From: Acephala macrosclerotiorum | Lineage: Eukaryota; Ascomycota; Leotiomycetes; Helotiales; Mollisiaceae | Assembly (NCBI GenBank): GCA_014904845.1 | Contig: MU119344.1 | Coordinates: forward strand, 62,001-126,000 | DNA length: 64,000 nucleotides | Direction: 5' to 3' | Shown here: positions 138 through 61,926 of the stretch, piece by piece | How positions within the stretch are numbered: the stretch's first letter is position 1 | Layout: each line of letters starts with the position of its first letter | The notes under the pieces: model-generated | What the model was told of the DNA's origin: nothing | The model's input: only the letters and a program-made list of their open reading frames with translations | Database searches by the model: none | Translations under genes and position numbers: made by a program

Positions 138-2206
138 CTAGACAAGCTTGATCTCCTGCATTGTCGTATCCTGCCACCACTCCCTGCCATACGTCTTTCC
201 CACTCCAACTCTCTCATACGTAAAAGGCATATCATCACATCTCCTAAGCACCAGTACCCAGTACACGCGCAATCTCCGTGATACAGCAACTCCAGTCCGC
301 TGCTCGTTCTCTTCGTCTCTCCGGCTACGTGTGCCCATAAGAGCAAGGCAAAAGAGCGGCTCATAATCGAGCTCTTCAGTCCATAAGTCAAAGACGGCCC
401 ATCCAAGATTTTCACCGCTTGCTGTATAAAAAAAGCGACACAAGGAATGTGTTTGCTTTGCGTTGGATGTGATAATGTCGTTGGAGACCATGGAAGGCAC
501 GGGAAAGGATTTATCTCGCCCACGGGTTTGCTGCAAGGACCCTATTTGCTTCAACTTCGCGCAGACGAAGAGCCCGCTGGATTCTCTCCATTTGATTGAT
601 TTGCAAAGGCTCTTGGCACCGTAAATGCCTACAAAGCGCACGCTACAAGGAACTGAGGCCCATGTCCAGGATGGCAACTGCAGAGGGTTGCAAGGTTTAT
701 GAACTTTCTGCGTAATCTGCCATAGAAGCTGGTCTGGAAGTGAGCTCTTCCAAAGGCCGTACAAGTATGTGTCTCCGGTCTTCTTCTGGAGCTCAGTCTT
801 GAGCCCTTCGAGCGCAATGAGGCGGTCGGTAGAATGAGTTAGTTGTCGCTCGGAGTATTGCTCAATGACGTTCTTCCACTTTGGGTTTCGAGCAGTACTA
901 TGAAACTTTTCGCCAGTTTCTCGTTGCGTGAGTGTCTTGCAAGACCAGATGATTTGGCCGTTGGTATAGAAGACCATTCGACGGGAGAGAAGCCATTCTT
1001 GAGTAGCCCAGGCACGCTTACTGAGGGAACCGTGCTCTGGAAATATGTCATCCACTTGATCGCGGCGGATGGTTGCAAACACCCTGGTCGAAGCTCGCTC
1101 GCCTTTGAAGAATTGTGGAAGTTCTACGATAGGTGGTGACGCAGAGCGTGGTAGAAATAGCCCGTGCCATGAGTCTGGTGAGTGAGACGCGGCAATTGTA
1201 AGCTCCGCTCTCTCATATATCGATCCCATCTTGACCGACTCTCTTAGCCACTCATCTTGATCGTCTTGCACAATGCATAAGGAATCTATCCAAATATATT
1301 GAAGACCTATCTGGCGGACAGTAGTGATAGCATCCTGAAACGTCCTTGGCATGGTCGACCACTCGATATGATGGCAATACTCTCGGAGGTTGCCCCGAGT
1401 CGTTGTTAATGGAGGTCGTTCTTGAGAGCCCCAGCAGTGGCTAAGAGCAATGTATCTTGCTTTGGCACCATTCGACTCAAAAATTCTTGCAGGCTTCGTG
1501 CCGTCAATGCTTCCAACATCAACAACACGCATCGGAAGTTCAGGGAGGGTTGATTCATCCACTATTGCCCCCGAAAATGTCTCCCTACATTTAATATGTT
1601 CATCTCGACATGCCCTAAGCCATTTTCTTATGAGGTTGAAAGCCTCTTCGCCACCTGAGTCTGGCAGACGCTGTCGCCCAAGTATAAAGTCTTTTAATTG
1701 TGTCACATCATCAGCTAGCAACGGTTAGCGCTGAGCCGTACACGGTGTCTTGAAATACCATTGTTTGTATAAAGGCGCACAGCGCCTGCGACTAGTTCAA
1801 TATTGCCCCTGGTATTCCGTTGTCCATTCACTTCAAACCCCCTCACGTGGATGCCACCAGCTGCAGAGTGAGGGAATGCACAGCCTAGGGGATCTACCAT
1901 TGGTGTAAACCACAATGGGTTAGAAATAAGATTTTGCTCGATCTCGGTAAGGCCATGATTTTCTGGACCGGGCAGTTGAATCTGAGCCGCGGCCAAATCG
2001 TCTTGCCGGGAGAGTCGGACGGACAATGATTCTTCAATCAGTGCGCATAGAGGGCAGTGTCGAGCAGATTCTGCCAGATCGGATATACACTTAAGATGAA
2101 CCGTTCTTCTCTCCTTCCTACCAGCTGTGCCATCTGCACTATCATCCGTAAGCAGTGATGTCAACCTCTGCAAATTTATCGAATGGCAGGAGTCACAGAG
2201 GCTCAT
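138..2206 (-). CDS. HET-domain (heterokaryon incompatibility) protein, two exons
   Basis: Likely a member of the fungal HET family, which triggers growth arrest or cell death when incompatible strains fuse. Exon 1 is 1759-2206 and exon 2 is 138-1714. The 44-nt intron (1715-1758) starts GTATTT, has a GCTAAC branch site and ends TAG, and splicing restores one frame of 674 aa. The N terminus has CDSC near residue 4 and a second CPLC pair near residue 50, as in many HET proteins. The HET core starts with ALSHCWG at about residues 239-245 and continues with the WIDSLCIVQDD and ITIAASHS-like blocks. The start ATG at 2206 has a CAAC context. The C-terminal part (about residue 400 on) is the usual variable region. 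The family is certain. The allele type and whether the gene acts in vegetative incompatibility cannot be read from the sequence. Confidence 0.9.
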
Positions 2207-3109: not shown

Positions 3110-3710
3110 GGTTTATATTTTTTATATATATATATATTTTTTTTACGTTTTATTAAATTTTATAATATATTTTATTATATATATTATTATAATAATTAAA
3201 AAATAAAATCTTATAAAAATTATATATTTATTATAAATTTAATATTATTATTTTTTATTTATAATTATTATAATATTTTTATTTTTATTTTTTATATTAT
3301 ATTAAATAAATTTCGTTTATATTTTAAATATAAAAATATAATTTTTTATAATTTATTACGAGAAACTCTACTTCTCTATACGCTGGTGCCTTAGGCACTA
3401 GTCTAATCACGTGTCACGGACTATATAGTCCGTGGTAGCACTCTTTAATTGAATTAAACTCTTTATTACTATTGTAATATTATTATTTAAACGTAATATA
3501 TTTTTAATTTTATTATTAATATTATAAATAAAAAATAAAATAATATTAAAATAAAAATATTTAATAATTTTTTTAAAAGTAAATAAAACGAGTAAAAGTA
3601 ATTGCCGAAAATAAAAAAAAAGTAATTAAACTATTATAAACTTTTTATTTAATATAAAAAAGTAATAAAGTACAAAGTAAAAAAGTCTAATCGTAAATCC
3701 GTTCGTCTTA
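3110..3710. repeat. AT-rich island, probable mutated transposon remnant
   Basis: Two blocks, about 3110-3360 and 3440-3690, are almost only A and T. They bracket a normal-composition core at 3361-3440 containing two palindromes (3386-3398 and 3415-3434). Such composition is typical of repeat DNA degraded by repeat-induced point mutation in ascomycetes. No transposase or polymerase fragment can be read, so the element class is unknown. Confidence 0.5.
3415..3434. repeat. Perfect 20-bp palindrome
   Basis: CACGGACTATATAGTCCGTG reads the same on both strands. It sits in the only GC-containing gap of the AT-rich island, 17 bp after a second short palindrome, GTGCCTTAGGCAC (3386-3398). It could be a terminal-repeat remnant or a cruciform site; the function is unknown. 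Confidence 0.8.
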
Positions 3711-3960: not shown

Positions 3961-4319
3961 CCCTGTAGTGGTTGCTGCTCTCCGGCGCTAGTTGATTAAT
4001 AAGTCATTAAAAAAGGTTACACTGCAGAATGCCCAACCTACTAAAAGCGTATGAGGGCCTGTTTTGCTCGACGAGGCGTACGCGAAAACGCAGCGAGTGG
4101 AGTGGCCAAAATATAAGTGTATTTTCAGCCCAATATGCTAAACGCCCAGCAGAGCCTTAAATTTCAGAACACGTGACGAGGCCATCAAACAATAGTCGCA
4201 GCATCTGCTAGATCTCCGAGAGACGAAATATTTTCTGTCATTCTCTTCCATCGAATTCTCTTGCATTTCCAACCTTTCCACCACCACGTTACGAGAGGCA
4301 CTGAAACTTCATTCCAGAC

Positions 4320-6401
4320 ATGCTTTACACGAGACTCGACGATGCATCCTATCAAGTCCGACTTGTTTCTCTTTTGCCCGCAAACTCCACCACAGAGGCC
4401 GTACACTGTGTATTGGAGACAGTATCACTTCTCAGTTACGTACCGACGTATGAAAAGTTCGCATCAAAACCTTCCTCTGCAAGAAAGAAACGAGCCTTTC
4501 TCTCCGAATGGGTTAAAGACATAAATCACGCAGAACTAGGAGACGATAATCTTCCAGGACAAGTCCCGTCTGAGGATGTCTATCGTTTTACTTGGGGCGA
4601 GTTCGCAACTCTTTCCTACAATTGGGGTGATCCAAATAACACAGTGAGCATATATCTAAACGGAGAAGAGACGAAAGTCACCAAAAACCTGGCAGCAGCT
4701 TTACGGGCTTTCCGCAAATTGAACTTCTTTCACGGCAGATATAAGCTTTGGATTGATGCCATTTGCATCAATCAACATGACAACCAAGAGCGTAGCGCCC
4801 AGGTTGCCAGGATGCGAGACATATATGATGGCTCTTGGACCACCGTGACATGGCTTGGTGAGGCTGCGGATGACAGTTATAAGGCTATTGAGTTGCTGAA
4901 GACTCTAGCTGAGTACGAGGCGCGAGGCGAATCTGTTATTCTCAAAGAAAAGCTCCAGGAGCAACCGGAATACCTAGGCGTGGGCAAGTGGATGGCTCTA
5001 CATACCTTCCTTCAACGGCCATATTGGTCGAGACTGTGGATAATCCAGGAAGTCGTTCTTGCTCCAAAGAACATGTTGGTGTTTGTTGGGGAGGATTCAA
5101 TTACTTGGCAGGAAATATATGATGGTCTGGGCGTAATTCATACCACTCATTGGTATGCCAAGGATGCTTGCTTGCGCAACGATCGGAGAGTGCATCGCAT
5201 GATTCGGGGTCTCGAAGGGGAAGACTCTCCTGTGTGGAACACAGAGAATCTTCACCATATCGACAAAGATATAGCCGGAGTTGAGAAAAAAGAATTGCGA
5301 GGAGAAGGCTTACCGACATTCACTGAGCTACTTTACACAGCTAATGGAGCCCAAGCCTCGCAACCACTAGACAAAGTCTACGGACTCCTCGCCATCATGG
5401 ATCCCGTAATATCCCAGCATATCATCCCAGATTATACCATTAAGCCCTCAAAGCTATTTGCCCAAGTTGCACATCTTTACATTTCGCACTCCCGCAATCT
5501 CGAAATTATTCGTGATGGCAATCCTTGGGGAAACAGAGAAACGCCATCTTGGGCCCCTGACTGGCTCTGGGCCCACAGAGGCCGCGACAAAGACAAACCC
5601 CAACTCCGATACACCGCAGACGCCAACCGACCCTGTAAGTGTTCATTCTCCCCTGATCTCAGCCTCCTTACCGTCGATGCCATCTTCATCGACACCATCG
5701 ACGGTCTCGGCGCCAGTGCCTGCCCTGATGACGCAACGTGGTACAACTTCCTCCCAGAAACAATGATACATCCTCGCAAATTTCGTAGCGCCTACGGGTC
5801 AGTCTCGTCAACTCACCTCGCGTTTCACCGTACCTTAATTGGTGATCGCCGCGGTCACAGCGGCGCTCAGCGGTCTTTGTGTAGAAGGAACCTCGACCTC
5901 TTAGGCCTCCCTGGTTCAGCTGCCGCTGCAACCGCCGAGTTCCAACGCCGAGGGTGGACCGAATTCGCAATACAAGGTCAGAGGTATTTGCATTGGGAGA
6001 AATGGCGGGAAGTTCATCAGAGCTTCTGGCTGGGCGATGAACTAGGGAGGATGGGTGATATGTTCACCGATGAAATACCGAAGGAGGCTGAGTTAGGCCC
6101 GATATGGGAGGTATATGTAAGGTTTAGGAATGTGGCTACCGGGAGACGTTTTGTAACAACGGAAGCAGGGAGGTTTGGATGGGTGCCAGATAATGCAAGT
6201 GGAAGACAAATGGATCAAGTTCGTAAGGGTGATTTTTTGGTAGTTGTGTTGGGCTGCACGGTTCCGCTTGTTGTAAGGAAATATCGAGATGGTATGTATC
6301 AACTTTTAGGTGATAGCTATGTTCAAGGATTTATGGATGGCGAGGCTTTACAAATGGTGGACGACGAAAACATAAAGGTGGAGAGGCTTACATTCTGCTG
6401 A
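4320..6401 (+). CDS. HET-domain protein, single exon
   Basis: A 693-aa uninterrupted frame of the second common HET subtype, in which the HET core lies near the N terminus and no CxxC leader is present. The core runs from about residue 95 to 255: FATLSYNWGDP, the NLAAALRAFR helix, LWIDAICINQHDNQERSAQV, then the MRDIYDGSWTTVTWLG block. A second conserved stretch, CLNDRRV/FTELLYTAN..ASQPLDKVYGLLAIMD, follows near residues 280-365, and the C terminus carries the small domain with GRFGWVP typical of this subtype. Members are thought to act in non-self recognition. It is not a close paralogue of the HET gene at 138-2206. The ATG at 4320 is the first in frame and precedes all conserved sequence. 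The family is certain; the biological role is inferred. Confidence 0.92.
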   Translation: MLYTRLDDASYQVRLVSLLPANSTTEAVHCVLETVSLLSYVPTYEKFASKPSSARKKRAFLSEWVKDINHAELGDDNLPGQVPSEDVYRFTWGEFATLSYNWGDPNNTVSIYLNGEETKVTKNLAAALRAFRKLNFFHGRYKLWIDAICINQHDNQERSAQVARMRDIYDGSWTTVTWLGEAADDSYKAIELLKTLAEYEARGESVILKEKLQEQPEYLGVGKWMALHTFLQRPYWSRLWIIQEVVLAPKNMLVFVGEDSITWQEIYDGLGVIHTTHWYAKDACLRNDRRVHRMIRGLEGEDSPVWNTENLHHIDKDIAGVEKKELRGEGLPTFTELLYTANGAQASQPLDKVYGLLAIMDPVISQHIIPDYTIKPSKLFAQVAHLYISHSRNLEIIRDGNPWGNRETPSWAPDWLWAHRGRDKDKPQLRYTADANRPCKCSFSPDLSLLTVDAIFIDTIDGLGASACPDDATWYNFLPETMIHPRKFRSAYGSVSSTHLAFHRTLIGDRRGHSGAQRSLCRRNLDLLGLPGSAAAATAEFQRRGWTEFAIQGQRYLHWEKWREVHQSFWLGDELGRMGDMFTDEIPKEAELGPIWEVYVRFRNVATGRRFVTTEAGRFGWVPDNASGRQMDQVRKGDFLVVVLGCTVPLVVRKYRDGMYQLLGDSYVQGFMDGEALQMVDDENIKVERLTFC

Positions 6402-51304: not shown

Positions 51305-52375
51305 ATGGCAGAACGTGCAGCCCAAATCGCTGGCCACCTCAATTACCCTAAAGGCCTCCTGGCTGGCCAGGTAGCTATTATCACAGGCTCAGGACAAGGC
51401 ATTGGTGCTGAAACAGCTCGTCTCTTTGCCAATGAAGGTGCAAGAGTTGTAGTGTCCGACATTGATGCTGGTACGAAGCTTCACCTCAATCTGCAGCACT
51501 ACTGCTGACTTCAGGGACAGCAAAAGCACAACAAGTCGCCGACAACATCAACCAGTCTGGCGGAAAGGCCACTGCAGTCTCTGGTGATATGCTGGACTCC
51601 GAATACATCAAGACGCTGGTTAAGAAGGCTGCGGAGTTCGGAAATGGGAAGATTAACATTATTGTGAACAATGCGGGGTCAGCGAATCCAAACAACCCTC
51701 ACATCCTACACAGCTGTTGACAAGCTTGCAGATACACCTGGGATGGCGTAATCCACAAGGTAGAAACCCTTCTACCTTTCTTTACTCTCCTCTTTCTCGC
51801 AAATAATTGACGAAACTTCTCGCCCCCGGATAAGTAGACGGAATGCTGACAATGCTTGCTAGATGACCGACAAACAATGGGACAACATAATCGCCCTCCA
51901 CAATACCGCACCCTTCAAACTCGTCCGCGAAGCCGCCCCCTACTTCCGCGTCACAGATGGTGAACCTCGCTGCATAATCAACATTTCCTCCACCTCCGGC
52001 GTCCACGGCAACGCAGGTCAAGCCAACTACGGCCTCGCAAAATCCGGAATAAACGGTTTGACGAAAGTCATTGCGAAGGAATGGGGCCCGAAGTTTGGTG
52101 TCAGAGCAAACTCGATTGCTTTCGGTCATATTTTGACACGGCTGACGGCTGCGAAGGAGGACGGTGCGTTTGTTACGACGCCGGATGGGGAGAAGATTGC
52201 TTTGGGCATACCGAAGGGGCAGGGCTCGCAGTCGGCGAATGCGAATTTGGATATTCCGTTGAGGAGGCCTGGGACGGCTACGGAGGCTGCGAGCAGTATT
52301 TTGGCTGTTGCTAGTCCGCTGTTCAGCTACATCACTGGCCAGGTCATTATGGTCACGGGAGGCAGGAACATGTAG
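51305..52375 (+). CDS. Short-chain dehydrogenase/reductase (FabG-like)
   Basis: NAD(P)-dependent oxidoreductase of the classical SDR type, 289 aa. Four exons, 51305-51470, 51515-51677, 51732-51759 (only 28 nt) and 51863-52375, with introns of 44, 54 and 103 nt. The Rossmann motif TGSGQGIG is at 27-34, NNAG is split across intron 2, and the catalytic S162, Y175 and K179 lie in NISSTSGVHGNAGQANY and the following GLAKSG. The C terminus has the SYITGQVIMVTGGRNM pattern of 3-oxoacyl-ACP-reductase-like enzymes. An insertion around residues 215-245 (TTPDGEKIALGIPKGQG) is typical of a fungal subgroup. The substrate cannot be read from sequence. It has no obvious partner genes nearby. Confidence 0.92.
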
Positions 52376-55300
52376 AGGAAGTACTGAACGGATTTGGTCG
52401 TTGTAAGTTGGCCTATTCGAAGTCCTCCCTCATTAGGGTTGAGGCTGCTCCCTAACTGGAAGCTTCTCGATTTCGTCTCACCTGATGCCTGGTCTCTATT
52501 GCTTGATTGTTGTTTTGCGCTGTTATCCTCTACCGCTCATCTCGTTGATATTCATTGTCCCAAGTTGGGTAGGAACATTGCCCACGTTTCCTTCTCTGTT
52601 ACGGGCCCGGCTACCAACCTCCCGTGGTTGCTAGCCCATAGGGATTCCCAGTTCCAATGCCCTTCCATTGCAGCAAGGAGGCAACCTCGCCGTAGCACCG
52701 TCGTGCCTCGAAGCGTCTATATATCATCACCATCTCCCATCTCTGCTATGCTTCATATCATACATACACCACTCAATCAATAATTCATTCATTCAATCTA
52801 GTTCTTCCTCATCTTTGTTATATAAAGACATCTTCAAAAATTCAACAGTCCTCGAGCTTCTGTACGCAGCACTCCGGATCAAAGCAAGATCAACTATCTT
52901 TACATCTACATTTTACTATTAGCATTTCACCACAACATGCAACATATGGCTAGAACCTCACCCACGACCGTTCAAGAATCTATGCTACATATAGATGCAG
53001 TACACGCGACACCATATCTCTTACCAAAACAGGCTTAATCGTCCGAAGATACTAGCGGACGCGCGATTCACCGCAGTATCCACAACGCTGCCTCCATTTC
53101 GTTCCTAGGCATCCAACCTCAAAGCGAGTGCCACAAGGCAGAGAAGATACTGTCAGTATTCCCTTCTGACCCTCGAAGGATGGAAATCCAAACCTTCATA
53201 CGGCCTGCGACGATGACCACGGTACGGCTTTGCCAACAAATCTACGGCACTACGTCGACAAAAGCCAACACTTTGGAATGATGAGGACCTAACAACCCTT
53301 TCAGCGTCGAATTGCTCTGCGCCAAACATTCCACGACGGAGAGTTCAGCACTGGTTTCAAATTGGAGGAAGGAGAATAATTTGGATCAACAACCGCTACA
53401 AGGTCTTCTTTTCTAGGAGTAAGTCGCCCTTACAGGCATATTCTTAGATGCTGATGAAAGAGCAGACAGCCTACATTCGGCATCGCGAATACGAGTGGGC
53501 CGTTCTCTCTCCGCAAGAAAGGCAGAGTAAATGCCGTCCAAGATATGGGGTTTGAGAATGCTGCTCTGGTACAAAAGGGCAATACTCATTCCTGTCTGTC
53601 GACCTCACGGAGTACAAAAAGCACCTGGGGGATCCTTTGCAACTAGGTCTAGGTAAACGACCCGACCCGATATTTCATCCACCTCTACAGCTAGTATTCA
53701 CCGGTTCTAGAACTCTTCCGCATCCTACCCAGCAAAACCCTAACACCGTCGACCTGAAGTTCATGAATGGGCTATTTCGGCAACGGCTCCGGGGCGTCTA
53801 CCCTACATGATGGAACTTACCATCAAGACCAGCGACAGCGTGTTGGAGAAGCATTCTCCCTACAGGTTCAATTCGTTGGCGGCAACAACCCGGACGACTT
53901 ACCAGGCCTGCGAAACCATTGTCTCTCCGGCCACAGGAAGGCGCAGTTTGCTCCCACCACATTGGCACCACCACACGAGTGCCGAACCTTCGAGGCCAAT
54001 GTGCAGATACTACCAAGTACAGGTCCACGAGCGGCGAAGCTTTATCTCGCTACCAGCAATACCAAATAATGTCAAAAGCGAGGACATTACGGACCATGTT
54101 CGGGGTCATGTTCCGCTCATCCAAGAAGCAGCCTGCGTCTCAGCGAGCGCTAGAACTACCGCCAGCCCCTCCAGTACGCGAACGCTGCGACGAATGGTTC
54201 GACTTTTCAGGCAGTCCAGAATGTTCCTGTGGCTTTGAAGCAAGTGACGACGATTTTCGAGCAGCTGCAGACAGGTTGCGGCTCCCGTTGGCGGAGCTAT
54301 GGATTAGTCGAGCAACTTTGCTGCACTGTCATCTCAAAAGCTGTCCTGGAGCCGGGGATGCCTATTGTTGTAAGTTGGGTGGGCGCGAAAGCTGAGCTGA
54401 GCTGTTTAGTAGCTATAGAATGCTTGAAGCACATTTTCAGGAGCATGCTTTAGACGAATTTGATGCCGTCTTTGGTGATAATGTCCCAGCGAGTAGACCA
54501 CGAGAGCTAGCCGAAGCAGGTGACCTGTAACAAATGGACGCAAGGCGTCTTGCAAGCAATGAGCAGTCTTGGAATGGACGAGAGCTTTCTAATCCCTTTG
54601 GTGTTGTATGCCGTCTACAGGGCTTTATAAGGTTCTGCTCGATGCGTAAGAGACATCATGCCGTGATCTTTACCTTTGCTCGCATTTAATTCAATGTGGA
54701 CGCTCCTCCTGCCTGGGTTGCAGGCTCGGGTTAGGCTCTGCATAAGGTTCTAGCGGGCCTCACGGATGATTGGCTGTCAACAAGTGGCGTTGCATTTCGC
54801 CACACACCCTCACGGCGAGTCTATTTGTTTGCCTCATCGCCTAGACATGATTGCTTTGCCTAGCGGTAGATCCCGCAGTGCCTGAAACAGAGCCAAATCT
54901 GCGGGGCACTTTCGCGCATTGCAGCTGGATTACCGCGGAGGAGCTCATTGGGCCGCGGAATATATCATCGCGGACTCGCGTCTCGTGCTTTGCATGAGGC
55001 TTGTTGTTTTTCTCGTCTCAACTGCATTGCACATGTCAATCTTTACTTGTATCGCTGTGAAGCTGTGTCTGTACCAATTAATATCCGGCGTACAGCATGG
55101 ATTATTCTCTCCAAATATATACATATTTTCTCTTCTTTTTCCCCTTCATTTTTCCCCTTCATTTTCCCCCTCATTTTTTTGGTATCATGGCGTCGAATGT
55201 GTGATTGTCTCGGTGAGCGTCTTTCTTTGACATGAAAGGGGTATAGATCAACAAGCTTATGCCGAGATCTACTCAGCTTGAACCCTCTCCAGTAAGGCCA

Positions 55301-55783
55301 CTGCACCATGGTGGATACCACAATGTCATTCTGGACCTACAAGTATGAGACATTACCTGTGTTGTGTTGTAGACTTGCGAGGTAATTCAGGCATGTCTCG
55401 GTCGGTCCAAGTTGTTTCAGCTCACTGGTTTTCTGCTAGACTATTAGGAGATCTAAGTTCTCCGCGATAGTTCATGTCTCTCTTTCCACTGCGCATTATT
55501 TGTTGGACGACAGCTGCAATGCAGTAGTTTGTTATAGGTAGTCAGTGCCTGGTCACCAGGTCCGTATTAGAGGCGTTCAATGGCTCGTTGGTATTTTCCG
55601 TGTCTCAAGCACTTCGTGTTCTGGGGCAAAGATCGTGGATTGGGAGTACCTCTCAAACTTTATAAAAGCTAGCCCTGCTATGGTAAGTTCTCGCGATCAA
55701 ATCTTATTCTCACCCACGTTACAGCTTCGACCTGCTTTATCATCATAGAGCCTTACTTTGGTTCACCCTCTTCCCGTCTCAGT
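52376..55783. other. Gene-poor region with possible gene relic
   Basis: No intact recognisable gene. ORFs of up to 158 codons (53767-54453) overlap in several frames. A C/T-rich tract lies at 55130-55180 and the promoter of the repeat protein at 55400-55783. Confidence 0.4.
52998..54412 (+). pseudogene. Possible decayed gene, unassigned
   Basis: From an ATG near 52998 one plus-strand frame is almost open for about 430 bases, broken only by TAG and TGA. It contains protein-like sequence such as RVQHWFQIGGRRIIWINNRY. Other open stretches follow at 53480-53640 (VNAVQDMGFENAALVQKG) and 53919-54395. No family is recognised, and the pieces could also be chance ORFs in coding-like DNA. Confidence 0.3.
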
Positions 55784-57388
55784 ATGAATGTCCAAGAAAC
55801 ACTTATGGCCAACGACTCTCACAGCATGAACTTTCATGCGGGCAACTTTCATGCTGGTAATTGTCACGCGGGGGAGACTTCTAACTTTCACACCAGCGAT
55901 GTGAGCACCACATCCAACTTCCACGCTGGGGAGCACTCCAATTTCCATGCAGGCGATCTGAGCACTACTTCCAACTTTCACGCTGGCAATTATCACGCTG
56001 GCAATTATCATGCTGGCAATTATCACGCTGGCAATTATCACGCTGGGAAGACTTCCAATCTCCATGCCGGCAACTTTCACGCTGGCAATTATCATGCTGG
56101 CAATTATCATGCTGGCAATTATCACGCTGGCAATTATCACGCTGGGAAGACTTCCAATCTCCATGCCGGCAACTTTCACGCTGGGGAGCCCTCCAGTTTT
56201 CATGGAGGCGATCTGAACACTACTTCAAACTTCCACGCCGGCAGCTTCCACGCTGGTAGCTTCCATGCTGGGAAGCCAGAGGGAGACTCCAACTTTCATG
56301 CCGGCAACTTTCATGCTGGCAACTTTCACGCTGGTAACTTCCACGCTGGTGACTTCCATGCTGGTGACCTTCACGCTGGGAAGCCCTCCAACTTTCACGC
56401 TGGCAACTTCCATGCTGGTAACTTTCACGCTGGAAAGCTGGAGGGAGACTCCAACTTTCATGCAGGAATCTCCCATGCTGGCAAGGAAATCGTCGATGAG
56501 ACAAGTGAATACGATGCCAGCTCTATCATCAACTTCCATTCCGGGAAGTTCGCTCGTACCACGGTTCACGATAGTGCCGCTCCAAGTCCATCTATGAGGC
56601 CAAAACCAGGTACCATTGAAACTGGACTTAGCTTTTATGCCTCAACATTTGATGGCAAAGAGGCATACAACTACGTGGAAAAGCCTGCCAACGGCAACAT
56701 CTACAGCAATGTCGCCACATCCGAACATATGGTATCAATCACTGATATCCGAGGGCGAGAGAGCGAGCTTGACATCGATCGTGATGCGGTCCTCACCATT
56801 TCCGAAATCCCAGATCGCGGACATACTTTCACGAATGAGGAAAGTATCATCAAAGACTTCTACCCAGAAGTCGAGAACATCCTTCTCAGTAATGTGCCAG
56901 GCGCAAAGCGCGTGTACATTTTCGACCACACTCTTCGTCGCAGGGGCGGAGACCGCGGCCCAGTGACCCGAGCCCACATTGACCAGACGCCAGCGTCTGC
57001 TCTGGCGAGAGTTGCACGCCATCTCCCAGACGAAGCTGGGGATTTGCAGTCTCAGAGGGTCAGATTGATCAATTTCTGGCGTCCTATCAACGGTCTTGTT
57101 GAAAATCATCCTTTGGCATGGGCTGTTTCTGGCTCTGTCGCTGATAAAGATTTGACTCCCGTGGCGCATCACTATCCGACTTGGTCGGGTGAAACGTATG
57201 GAGTCAAGTATAACGAGGATCAGAGGTGGTATTATTGGAGTGGGATGGATAATAGTGAGGCATTGCTGCTGCAGTGTTTCGATAGTGAGAAGGGTGGGAG
57301 GTTGGTGCATTCTGCGATTGTGGATCCGACATCCACGAGTAGGAAATTCAGGGAGAGCATCGAGGTTAGGGCTTTGGTTTTTGGATAA
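55784..57388 (+). CDS. NxHAG pentapeptide-repeat protein fused to an AsaB/CmcJ (GA4-desaturase-like) oxygenase domain
   Basis: A single-exon frame of 534 aa with two halves. Residues 16-233 are built from 32 exact x-x-H-A-G pentapeptides, mostly NFHAG, NYHAG, NLHAG, SFHAG or DFHAG, in runs of one to six. The runs are separated by short spacers such as KTS, EHS, DLSTTS, KPEGDS and KLEGDS; a degenerate NFHSG lies at 250-254. From about residue 276 the protein matches the fungal AsaB/CmcJ/GA4-desaturase family: TDIRGRESEL, RVYIFDHTLRRR, THxDQ-type motif AHIDQT with H398 and D400, RLINFWRPI, DQRWYYWSGM, LQCFDS, H509 before DPTSTSRKFRESIEVRALVF with R529. HxD...H...R is the iron/2-oxoglutarate pattern of 2OG oxygenases (inference for this family). 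Known relatives hydroxylate or desaturate in secondary metabolism. The repeat module is not part of the usual family. Confidence 0.88.
   Translation: MNVQETLMANDSHSMNFHAGNFHAGNCHAGETSNFHTSDVSTTSNFHAGEHSNFHAGDLSTTSNFHAGNYHAGNYHAGNYHAGNYHAGKTSNLHAGNFHAGNYHAGNYHAGNYHAGNYHAGKTSNLHAGNFHAGEPSSFHGGDLNTTSNFHAGSFHAGSFHAGKPEGDSNFHAGNFHAGNFHAGNFHAGDFHAGDLHAGKPSNFHAGNFHAGNFHAGKLEGDSNFHAGISHAGKEIVDETSEYDASSIINFHSGKFARTTVHDSAAPSPSMRPKPGTIETGLSFYASTFDGKEAYNYVEKPANGNIYSNVATSEHMVSITDIRGRESELDIDRDAVLTISEIPDRGHTFTNEESIIKDFYPEVENILLSNVPGAKRVYIFDHTLRRRGGDRGPVTRAHIDQTPASALARVARHLPDEAGDLQSQRVRLINFWRPINGLVENHPLAWAVSGSVADKDLTPVAHHYPTWSGETYGVKYNEDQRWYYWSGMDNSEALLLQCFDSEKGGRLVHSAIVDPTSTSRKFRESIEVRALVFG
55829..56482 (+). 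repeat. Tandem 15-bp array encoding N-[FYL]-H-A-G pentapeptides
   Basis: The coding minisatellite has a 15-bp unit, roughly AAYTWTCAYGCTGGC, that stays in frame over 654 bp. Spacer lengths are always multiples of three. His is invariant in the repeats (CAC and CAT alternate), and the aromatic or Leu position varies by single bases. Synonymous differences between units outnumber changes at His, which suggests selection on the protein. Confidence 0.95.
55973..56170 (+). repeat. Two adjacent 99-bp copies, 98/99 identical
   Basis: Copy 1 is 55973-56071 and copy 2 is 56072-56170. Each encodes NFHAG, four NYHAG, KTS, NLHAG. They differ only by C/T in the first NYHAG histidine codon. A third partial start (NFHAG) follows at 56171. 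This is a recent in-frame unequal exchange or slippage event. Confidence 0.95.
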
Positions 57389-59369: not shown

Positions 59370-60456
59370 TTACGTCACTGCAACCTTCCCAAAACGATAC
59401 TGCGCCCAACTCAAACTTCCTTCAGGGAAAGTCCACAACTGTTCGCCAAGATCCGAACCTGCAGCGCCTGCAGCAACATAAATTGGGAGAATATGCTCCA
59501 ATGTTGGATGCGCCTTCCTGGCATCACTGCGCCTCATCAAAGCTAACATCTTCGCCCGACGTTCCTCTAGCCTTGCAGTGGCAGCCTCTTTCAGCGCCTC
59601 GTCGAAGCTAAAGGCATAACTGAACAACGTTAGCAAGAACAACATCAACCTGATATTGCCAGCAGGGTTCTGCTTACGACGTTGTTTGGCTAGTTCCCCT
59701 TGTGGCTTGGCAGTCACGAAGATTATGGACAGCCATGCCCGCGCCGATGATCAGAATGCCTTCGTCTCGCAGACTTTCCAGCGCCTGGCCCATGCGGTAA
59801 TGTTGATCCGTATTTTCATTATTGAACAGCGAGACTTGCACGATCGGTACATTCAATGGGTTCTTCTTTGGATCAAAAGCTGTGCAGACAGTAGTGTATC
59901 AGCAACGTACAAGATCCCGAGAATGTACAAAGACACAAGAGACTTGGAACGTACCGGCCACAAACCCCACCCAAACACCGTGATCGAGACCCCGTTTGAC
60001 TTTCTCAACCTCAATACCAGCACCCTCTAGCTTCTCGATAACCCTTTCAGCAACCTCAGGACTTCCCTTATTCGGATACTCATACTCGTAGTAATGCGGC
60101 GGAAAGCCGTAGAAATCATAAATAATGTCCGTCTTCTCTGCGACATTGATCTGAACCTTATTTGGGCCATCTTGCCAGTGGGCAGAAAAGACGACTACTG
60201 CCTTGGGTCTGACTTTTGTCGTGATTTCTTGCCCGATTGCTGCCAGTTTGGTATAGGCAGGGTGGTTTGTGTTTTCCATGAAGTTTGGACCGCCAATGCC
60301 GAGGAAGTAGACTGGTGTCCGTGGAGGACTGTTTGGATGTGAGGAACCAGACATGGCGATTGTAGCTTGTGTTGTTGGTTGTGTAGTGGCGGCTTGCCAG
60401 AAGTTACGGGTGTACGACTGCGCAATGCGGTGGACGAGTGGGATGGACAAGCTCAT
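59370..60456 (-). CDS. LigB/DODA-type extradiol dioxygenase
   Basis: Class III ring-cleavage dioxygenase of the 4,5-DOPA-dioxygenase (DODA/YgiD) type. Exons 59955-60456, 59678-59879 and 59370-59619 (introns 75 and 58 nt) give 317 aa. A second ATG at 60354 (MSGSSHPNSPP) would give 283 aa; the extra 34 residues look like a weak mitochondrial presequence. Conserved blocks: VVVFSAHWQ with H93, PPHYYEYEYPNKG, GLDHGVWVGF with H159, VPIVQVSL, GMAVHNLRD with H219, TSFDEAL-like FSFDEALKEA, and the end HPTLEHILPIYVAAGAAG and SWAQYRFG. Where the family usually has SHGGP near the N terminus, with a metal-ligand His, this protein has GIGGP (I54), so activity may be altered. It is divergent to the SDR at 61174, with 717 bp between starts. 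Confidence 0.87.
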
Positions 60457-61173
60457 GAGAATGACAAAGTATTGTGTACTTTGATCGGAGAATTGAACGA
60501 ATGGACGACAACACCAGGCACGTTACGCGCTGTGATTTTCTTGTGTCTAAGGTCTAAGGAGAAGAATCAATTGGCGTCCTAGGCAATGACTGTAATTATT
60601 CAGGTAACGAGGTGACAAATCCATTGTGAAAAGCACAGAGGATAGTGTTTCAATAAGTTGCCGAGATGCCTTTCGATACGAATCGTCCCACATGATCGAT
60701 ACTCAACGTCCTGCAGCGTAGAAATTCCCGCGCCATTGGGGTCAACTTGGCAGGGTTCTCAGCCCATGATGTTCATGTGTGGCTGCAAGTGGAAGCCGCG
60801 CGTGGCCTGCATACAAAATCAGCTGCAGGGCCCCTCCCGCGCGGGTGGGTCCCATTGAACTATAGGTCAGACTACAGGAACGCAGTCTCGACCAACCGAG
60901 TTGCTCTGATACTGCATATGGATTGATGCGATGCCAATATTCCTCCGAAATTCGAACTCGTAGCTCAAAAGGATTGTAAATCAAGAATGTAATGACAAAT
61001 CCTCGGAAAGAAGGAGGGTTGAACCTCCGTGCTGAGAATGAATATAGACTCTGCTTGGTATAGAGAGAGGGCATCTTGGCTTCAAGATAAATCCATTCTT
61101 CCATTCCGTATCTGAGCTTCTCTGCAGCTCAAACCACTTGAAGTTCATCTTTACCATTGACTACCACAGCACA
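60457..61173. promoter_or_regulatory. Divergent intergenic region of the dioxygenase and SDR genes
   Basis: 717 bp between the start codons. No clear Zn2Cys6 CGG-N-CCG pair stands out on reading. Both promoters must lie here. Confidence 0.4.
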
Positions 61174-61926
61174 ATGGCGGCCAACCCTGTTGTACTCATT
61201 CTCGGAGCTGGGCCTAGAATCGGCGCCTCTGTTGCTGAGAAATTCGCCAGCATCGGCTACAAGGTCGCTATTGTGTCTAGGAAGGGAACTGGCACCAAGA
61301 CCGACAAAGGTTTTCTCTCCCTCCAGGCAGACTTCGCCAAGCCAGACTCGATCCCCGCACTCTTCGATGCAGTCAAGACCGAGTTCCACACCTCTCCTAG
61401 TGTCGTCATCTACAACGCAGCAGCACTCACGGACCCTCCCGACAAGGACTCCGTTCTTTCGATTCCAGCGGAGAGTGTCGCCTTGGATTTGAATGTCAAC
61501 ACCATCAGCCCTTACGTCGCAGGGCAGCAGGCTGTCATTGGATGGGAGACACTGCCTAAGGAGACCAAGAAGACGTTCATATACACCGGCAACATCACGA
61601 ACGTATCCATCCTGCCCATGCCACTGTTTCTGGACCTAGGCATGGGCAAGTCCGCTTCGGCATTTTGGATAGGCGTTGCTGCCGCTACATACTCGGCCCA
61701 AGGTTTTCGGTGAGTACCTCGAAGAAAAACTCCGCGTAGACCGCTTCTGACATGCCTCGCCAGGTTCTTTTATGCCGATGAGCGCCAGCCAGACGGGAAG
61801 CTCAAGGGGATGGCGCTCGACGGCCCAGCACATGGCGAGTTCTATGCGCAGTTGGCGAACCTTGAGGAGAATGTGCCATGGCACGCCACGTTCGTGAAGG
61901 ACAAGGGTTATGTCCAATTCAAGTGA
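61174..61926 (+). CDS. Short-chain dehydrogenase-like NAD(P)-binding protein
   Basis: A 232-aa Rossmann protein. Exons 61174-61709 and 61764-61926 join through a 54-nt intron (GTGAGT ... CAG) at QGFR-FFYADERQPDG. The nucleotide-binding loop is LILGAGPRIGASVAEKF, followed by VAIVSRKG and NAA. The usual catalytic YxxxK is not in its classical place. The segment ASAFWIGVAAATYSAQGFRFFYADER instead marks a fungal SDR subgroup of uncertain activity. The start MAANPVVLI at 61174 has a good ACAATGG context; an upstream in-frame ATG at 61138 adds 12 residues. Head-to-head with the dioxygenase, which suggests shared regulation. The substrate is unknown. Confidence 0.85.

Follow-up and report, generated by a model that had tools for sequence, protein, structure and literature searches.

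An NFHxG pentapeptide array fused to a CmcJ/NvfI-family Fe(II)/2OG oxygenase in Helotiales fungi: a possible substrate carried in cis

Oxygenases of the CmcJ/NvfI family, of which NvfI (PDB 7DE2 and 7ENB) and CTB9 (7EUS) have solved structures, share with the protein described here the catalytic domain, an NvfI-like fold, the HxD...H triad and a conserved arginine. The solved chains and 107 bare relatives are without a peptide array, whereas the fused clade analysed in this work has a shorter loop I and the replacements R467W (12 of 13 proteins) and R493A/G. In the plant burpitides, the products of BURP-domain cyclases, a precursor peptide and an oxidative metalloenzyme share one chain, multicore substrates can be processed, and in the fused pathway cyclase and precursor form one autocatalytic polypeptide (PMC12186524). 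The BURP domain is a copper enzyme, whereas the enzyme here is an iron/2-oxoglutarate (2OG) oxygenase with a putative peptide substrate. In the fungal borosins (OphMA), a fungal enzyme domain modifies its own peptide segment, as PMC7878506 describes, and here, too, enzyme and peptide are on one chain. The borosin enzyme is a methyltransferase with a C-terminal core and a clustered protease, whereas here an oxygenase carries many N-terminal units and no such cluster was recognised. The histidine-rich beak proteins of squid are structural proteins without a known enzyme domain. They resemble the present array in their disorder and in their tandem pentapeptides of histidine and aromatic residues (GHGxY; excerpts of PMC6884462). 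The GETHR pentapeptide repeat (PF05671) is alike in having a pentapeptide period with histidine, at a score below the cut-off. No description of an array-oxygenase fusion was found among the open-access papers listed, in searches that were partly noisy and give weak evidence of absence; the motif string retrieved chance text only among the matches listed, and longer strings retrieved none. The oxygenase domain belongs to a known family, and the fused architecture appears undescribed as far as the searches reached.

The DNA analysed (the window) is a stretch of 64,000 nucleotides from Acephala macrosclerotiorum, and its relevant features, all on the plus strand, are as follows.

55661..55668 (+): TATAAAAG, a putative TATA-like element found by eye, ~120 bp upstream of the ATG
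55784..57388 (+): single uninterrupted coding frame P0001, 534 aa plus stop (ATG 55784, stop 57388, no internal stop), with 12 database proteins of like architecture
55829..56545 (+): array, residues 16-254, with 34 xxHxG units by pattern count, 26 being exact N[FYL]HAG; AlphaFold pLDDT <50 for residues 1-250 and 252-266
55972..56184 (+): tandem repeat inside the array, 99-bp period, 2.2 copies, 99% matches
56546..56611 (+): linker from array to oxygenase, residues 255-276, placed by alignment with relatives, pLDDT <50 up to residue 266
56612..57385 (+): predicted CmcJ/NvfI-type Fe(II)/2OG oxygenase domain, residues 277-534 (NCBIfam NF041278; Foldseek NvfI 7enb_B)
56939..56959 (+): residues 386-392, matched by sequence alignment to gating loop I of NvfI; 104 of 107 bare relatives have 2 aa more here
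56975..56983 (+): iron-ligand motif H398-x-D400, invariant, aligned to NvfI H135/D137
57167..57193 (+): residues 462-470, aligned to NvfI gating loop II and containing W467 (Arg in 105 of 107 bare relatives)
57260..57262 (+): A493 (Arg in 107 of 107 bare relatives, Ala/Gly in 13 of 13 fused proteins)
57308..57310 (+): third iron ligand H509, invariant, aligned to NvfI H250
57350..57370 (+): R523 to R529, both arginines invariant in fused and bare proteins

A pyrimidine-rich tandem repeat of 12-13 bp (CTTCATTTTCCC, 3.8 copies) was also seen at 55132-55178, ~600 bp upstream of the fusion gene. The possibility of a gene-model artefact, or of two genes read as one, was ruled out by the open 534-codon frame and by the 12 fused relatives, and on this evidence of frame and homologues the array-oxygenase fusion is real. 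The same two findings support the statement of the original prediction that one exon encodes both parts. The prediction had also recognised in the second half an AsaB/CmcJ-type oxygenase with HxD (398/400), H509 and R529 kept, which agrees with the results given below. Its description of the array, in contrast, requires correction: instead of 32 N-[FYL]-H-A-G units in the first 40% of the protein, residues 1-262 contain 26 exact N[FYL]HAG units and 34 relaxed xxHxG units, two counts between which the earlier figure falls, and the array occupies ~3-48% of the protein length.

The NCBIfam model NF041278 (CmcJ_NvfI_EfuI) matches residues 281-533 at 204.2 bits against a cut-off of 80, and it matches all 13 fused proteins at E<=0.001; PF27522 is the protein database's label for these proteins. 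A sequence search of the PDB returned NvfI (E 2.2e-17) and its W199F variant (1.7e-17). In the AlphaFold model the block-mean pLDDT is 88-98 over residues 271-534, and the top Foldseek matches to the model were NvfI (7enb_B, E 3.0e-25, TMt 0.86) and CTB9. Residues H398, D400, H509, R523 and R529 are identical in 13/13 fused and 107/107 bare relatives; the first three align with NvfI residues 135, 137 and 250, and R529, from what is known of the family, is presumably the 2OG-binding arginine. The domain matches of the window protein are NF041278 and a sub-cut-off GETHR hit, with neither a BURP nor an N-methyltransferase domain among them. The C-terminal half is, as judged by homology, a CmcJ/NvfI-family Fe(II)/2OG oxygenase with intact iron ligands and putative Fe(II)- and 2OG-dependent activity. 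With regard to NvfI itself, the iron triad is given as His135-His137-Asp250 in the main text of PMC8292354, whereas the PDB sequence has His135, Asp137 and His250.

Exact and relaxed units far exceed what composition alone produces, since over 10,000 shufflings of residues 1-262 exact units averaged 0.013, with at most 2 in any one shuffling, and relaxed units averaged 5.3, with at most 16. One more, decayed unit, NFHTS, can be seen by eye at residues 34-38. Units are spaced by 5, 8 or 11 residues, with one spacing of 19 and one of 21 as exceptions, and the longest run in the window protein consists of six abutting units. Histidine is the most frequent residue (38 of 262), while the same region contains one cysteine and 19 Asp/Glu. 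The even use of histidine codons in the 34 units (17 CAT and 17 CAC) and the encoding of glycine by four codons point to selection on the protein, and the histidines of the array have probably been retained by selection. The ratio pN/pS among the 26 distinct unit DNA sequences is ~0.10, a value biased low because the units were chosen by their H and G. The 99-bp segment, repeated 2.2 times at 99%, indicates that the array grew recently by duplication. The array is predicted to be disordered (pLDDT <50 for residues 1-250 and 252-266), and no strands are assigned N-terminal of residue 278. A beta-solenoid was considered and rejected: pentapeptide-repeat solenoids consist of A[DN]LxX repeats forming a beta-helix, a Pfam scan at E<=10 returned no family of this type, and the array has pLDDT <50 and is without strands. 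GETHR was the sole Pfam match at E<=10, scoring 15.6 bits where 22.4 would be needed to pass the cut-off, and at E<=0.1 it matched one of the 13 fused proteins. Dibasic (Kex2-type) sites are absent from the window array and number 0-4 in the N-terminal parts of the relatives, not between every unit; a signal peptide was not recognisable by eye in the window protein.

The full-protein database search yielded 214 proteins, of which 120 were listed and compared, the window protein (P0002) included. Among these 120, the array is present in 12 other proteins (P0003-P0014) and absent from 107 (P0015-P0121), two of which contain one chance match each to the relaxed pattern. The view of the original prediction that such an extension is unusual in this family is supported by these numbers. 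The fused relatives include Hyaloscypha finlandica, Coleophoma cylindrospora and Coleophoma crateriformis, all Helotiales; by taxonomy look-up, H. finlandica and C. cylindrospora belong to different families of that order. When the array region was used as query against proteins of 0.55-1.75x full length and the best 7998 candidates were scored, 11 matches were obtained (the window protein and 10 others), all labelled as the oxygenase family, with P0013 and P0014 missing as too diverged. An intact stand-alone array was not found, the array-sized search giving two short matches among 2213 candidates. P0122 resembles a fused protein that loses frame after the array, and P0123, from a contig of 1249 bases, has seemingly out-of-frame stretches, both as judged by eye at the protein level; we take them to be probable broken or fragmentary copies. 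A split form, with the array separate from the enzyme, was rejected on the same grounds, as only these two broken-looking proteins were found. Phage records gave no match to the fusion protein. P0013 is a diverged fused protein in which the array has mostly decayed (three strict and six relaxed units), the oxygenase is intact and R467 is kept.

The genome of A. macrosclerotiorum (69.66 Mb, 778 contigs) contains a single copy of the array together with bare paralogues, the nearest being on contig 13 with 48% identity. The tree was built from 122 oxygenase domains, namely those of the 120 database and window proteins and of two own paralogues, two further own paralogues being left out. A branch with 99/96 support, from a bootstrap that was not fully settled, separates the 13 fused proteins from all the others, and one bare paralogue of the same genome (L002) clusters with four bare proteins apart from the fused clade. 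Given this single fused clade and the position of the bare paralogue elsewhere, the most parsimonious history has a single duplication and a single acquisition of the array.

What is conserved in the array was examined from the histidine contexts in the N-terminal parts of the 13 fused proteins (294 histidines, 287 with full context, 244 distinct). Over positions -2 to +2 the 244 distinct contexts read N (82%), F (73%), H, A (67%) and G (82%). Isolated contexts, defined as those with no histidine five residues off on either side (129 distinct), still show N (78%), F (71%), A (60%) and G (71%), and elsewhere the commonest residue reaches at most 23%. Because conservation is confined to five positions, NFHxG is the unit, as opposed to a longer repeat or one in another register. 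By this pattern NFHxG is a specific linear motif between variable linkers rather than a generic His-rich metal sponge. In all eight pairs of relatives compared, change was less frequent at motif residues than in linkers; the pairs are non-independent, and their alignments tend to anchor on motifs and so favour motif conservation. Significance was computed for three pairs, two of which were significant: the Coleophoma pair (changes at 2/91 motif, 40/132 linker and 15/258 domain positions; Fisher p 1.4e-8 for motif vs linker) and P0004/P0005 (10/86 vs 46/127, p 5.9e-5), but not P0003/P0004 (7/140 vs 18/158, p 0.059). In six of the eight pairs the motif residues changed faster than the catalytic domain, so that single units are not strictly constrained. 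The number of relaxed units ranges from 4 to 30 across the 12 relatives, and is 33 in the window protein by the like pattern.

In NvfI, the substrate gate is formed by loop I (residues 122-128) and loop II (199-209), the latter supported by a hydrogen bond between K205 and E208 (part of PMC8292354). In the segment aligned with loop I, 13/13 fused proteins lack two residues, as do 3/107 bare ones (P0064, P0115 and P0120); the long form is present in 104 of the 107. Position 467 aligns with K205 in loop II, and R467W is found in 12/13 fused vs 2/107 bare proteins (P0078 and P0121). At position 493, Ala or Gly replaces Arg in 13/13 fused vs 0/107 bare proteins, all 107 of which keep the arginine. 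The changes were placed near the gate by sequence alignment with NvfI, not by structure. As the 13 fused proteins share common ancestry, these residue associations probably represent one evolutionary episode and not 13. Changes in the gate-aligned segments would fit a new substrate. Separately, the short loop I (P0064, P0115, P0120) and W467 (P0078, P0121) each occur in relatives that have no array.

We propose, tentatively and as the best placed of several possibilities, that a duplicated oxygenase gained a tethered array and a new specificity, and that it most likely binds or oxidises its own NFHxG units in cis. Duplication would have given rise to the fused copy while a bare paralogue was retained in the genome. 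The array would then act as a flexible tether that presents a short peptide many times over to the active site on its own chain, which a segment predicted to be disordered could reach. The remodelled active site would bind the NFHxG units and probably oxidise them, by hydroxylation or cross-linking of Asn, Phe/Tyr or His, and the modified units may be either excised as a product or kept on the protein. On this reading the protein would be the iron/2OG equivalent of the plant burpitides and fungal borosins. A more far-reaching version, which we consider doubtful, is that of a self-modifying Fe(II)/2OG oxygenase carrying dozens of copies of its own substrate: a fungal iron-enzyme fused ribosomal peptide system that arose in Helotiales when an oxygenase from a family acting on small molecules was united with a growing array of NFHxG units.

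Several results argue for the array as the enzyme's own substrate. All 11 matches to the array query carry the oxygenase label, array-sized proteins are only broken-looking, and the array is single in the 69.7 Mb genome; the motif is sharply bounded and changed less than the linkers in 8/8 pairs; the iron ligands are intact, gate-aligned changes mark the fused clade, and a bare paralogue exists in the same genome. Against it, the substrates of NvfI and CTB9, the relatives of known structure, are small molecules, and two AlphaFold models leave the motifs at pLDDT <50 (confidence values only). Docking of a motif was sought in the second of these models, of residues 224-534, and was set aside, as the first 46 residues have pLDDT <50 and these confidence values, the only ones considered, give no support for docking. 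There is also no dibasic site in the window array, no recognisable signal peptide and no UstYa match on the contig; the enzyme of P0013 is intact although its array has mostly decayed, and W467 and the short loop I each occur in array-less proteins too. Finally, the motif evolved faster than the catalytic domain in 6/8 pairs, and the residue associations probably trace to one episode.

The surroundings of the gene were scanned for partners of such a pathway in 29 of the 43 stop-to-stop open reading frames of at least 150 aa in the window and in the fusion frame, a scan that may miss genes of short exons. No peptidase or UstYa was found among these stop-to-stop frames, where other proteases are possible. 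No family was matched by the frame at 59370-59750 (<150 aa) or by the four ORFs of at least 150 aa that lie within 9.5 kb past the window, and no ORF of that length occurs in the last 7.7 kb of the contig. To the left of the window, C143:1-62000 was covered by searches for UstYa and for relatives of the fusion protein. UstYa (PF11807) has no match on the window's contig (C143) vs 59 matches, counted by exon, elsewhere in the genome. Eight of these 59 lie on contig 331, so that RiPP-type potential exists elsewhere in the genome. A biosynthetic cluster was considered and was not recognised in the frames scanned, the Pfam-recognised neighbours being HlyIII, two SDR genes, LigB, a kinase, a CSN8/PSD8 family protein, 2EXR and two HET genes. 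The LigB-type extradiol ring-opening dioxygenase exon (PF02900) is located at 59899-60522 (-), 2.5 kb downstream of the fusion gene, and the short-chain dehydrogenase exons at 51863-52375 (+), ~3.4 kb upstream, and at 61048-61713 (+), ~3.7 kb downstream. The two HET-domain (heterokaryon incompatibility) frames, 138-1724 (-) and 4305-6401 (+), flank A/T-only tandem repeats at 3114-3568.

A condensate scaffold ranks close behind the array as substrate, and we regard it as possible though somewhat unlikely: the pentapeptides of histidine and aromatic residues would be pH-sensitive stickers concentrating the oxygenase in droplets, as in the squid beak GHGxY proteins. For self-coacervation, at least four tandem GHGLY repeats are required and histidine deprotonation is the switch (part of PMC6884462). 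The window protein has runs of up to six abutting units, above four, although its motif differs from GHGxY; the array is of low complexity and predicted to be disordered, and each unit has a histidine and mostly Phe or Tyr. Isolated units with longer linkers are nevertheless common in the relatives and still keep N, F and G, stickers account for the aromatics and histidines better than for Asn and Gly, and the changes in the gate loops are left unexplained.

The gate-loop changes are equally unaccounted for if the NFHxG units are linear motifs through which another protein binds multivalently and brings the oxygenase to its substrate or site. We consider such docking of a partner improbable, even though a sharply bounded short motif amid variable disordered linkers has the look of repeated docking motifs: no partner is known, and in the searches made the array was found only with this oxygenase.

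Of much the same low likelihood is the binding, storage or delivery of metal, in which Cu, Zn, Ni or Fe would be bound by the 38 histidines of residues 1-262, so as to serve the iron enzyme or to buffer it. The copper site of PrP consists of a histidine, three small residues and an aromatic (HGGGW), and abutting units, read as His-Ala-Gly-Asn-aromatic, resemble it; histidine is also the commonest residue and uses its two codons equally, so it is probably kept by selection. That register, however, exists only where units abut and is lost in isolated ones, and the one cysteine and 19 Asp/Glu offer few other ligands. The original prediction is thus partly supported: it was right on the fusion, the type of oxygenase, the intact Fe/2OG residues and the unusual architecture, but the metal storage or delivery that it suggested is not the best fit because it explains the histidines and not N, F and G, which are conserved as well. 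Scaffolding, its other suggestion, is a live rival.

Non-functional drift, in which tandem duplication left a tolerated low-complexity tail, is very unlikely, for although copy number varies widely, the 99-bp segment was duplicated recently, the P0013 array has decayed and motifs outpace the catalytic domain in 6/8 pairs, it is opposed by the (low-biased) pN/pS of ~0.10 among the 26 unit DNAs, by motif change below linker change in 8/8 pairs (two of the three tested being significant) and by the retention of the array in two Helotiales families.

If the array is the substrate of the oxygenase, iron/2OG cofactor chemistry would join the fused self-modifying peptide systems, and the combination of an NFHxG array with NF041278 would provide a handle for genome mining. 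If the array is instead a condensate or docking scaffold, the protein would be a compact natural example of an enzyme equipped with a histidine/aromatic pentapeptide array.
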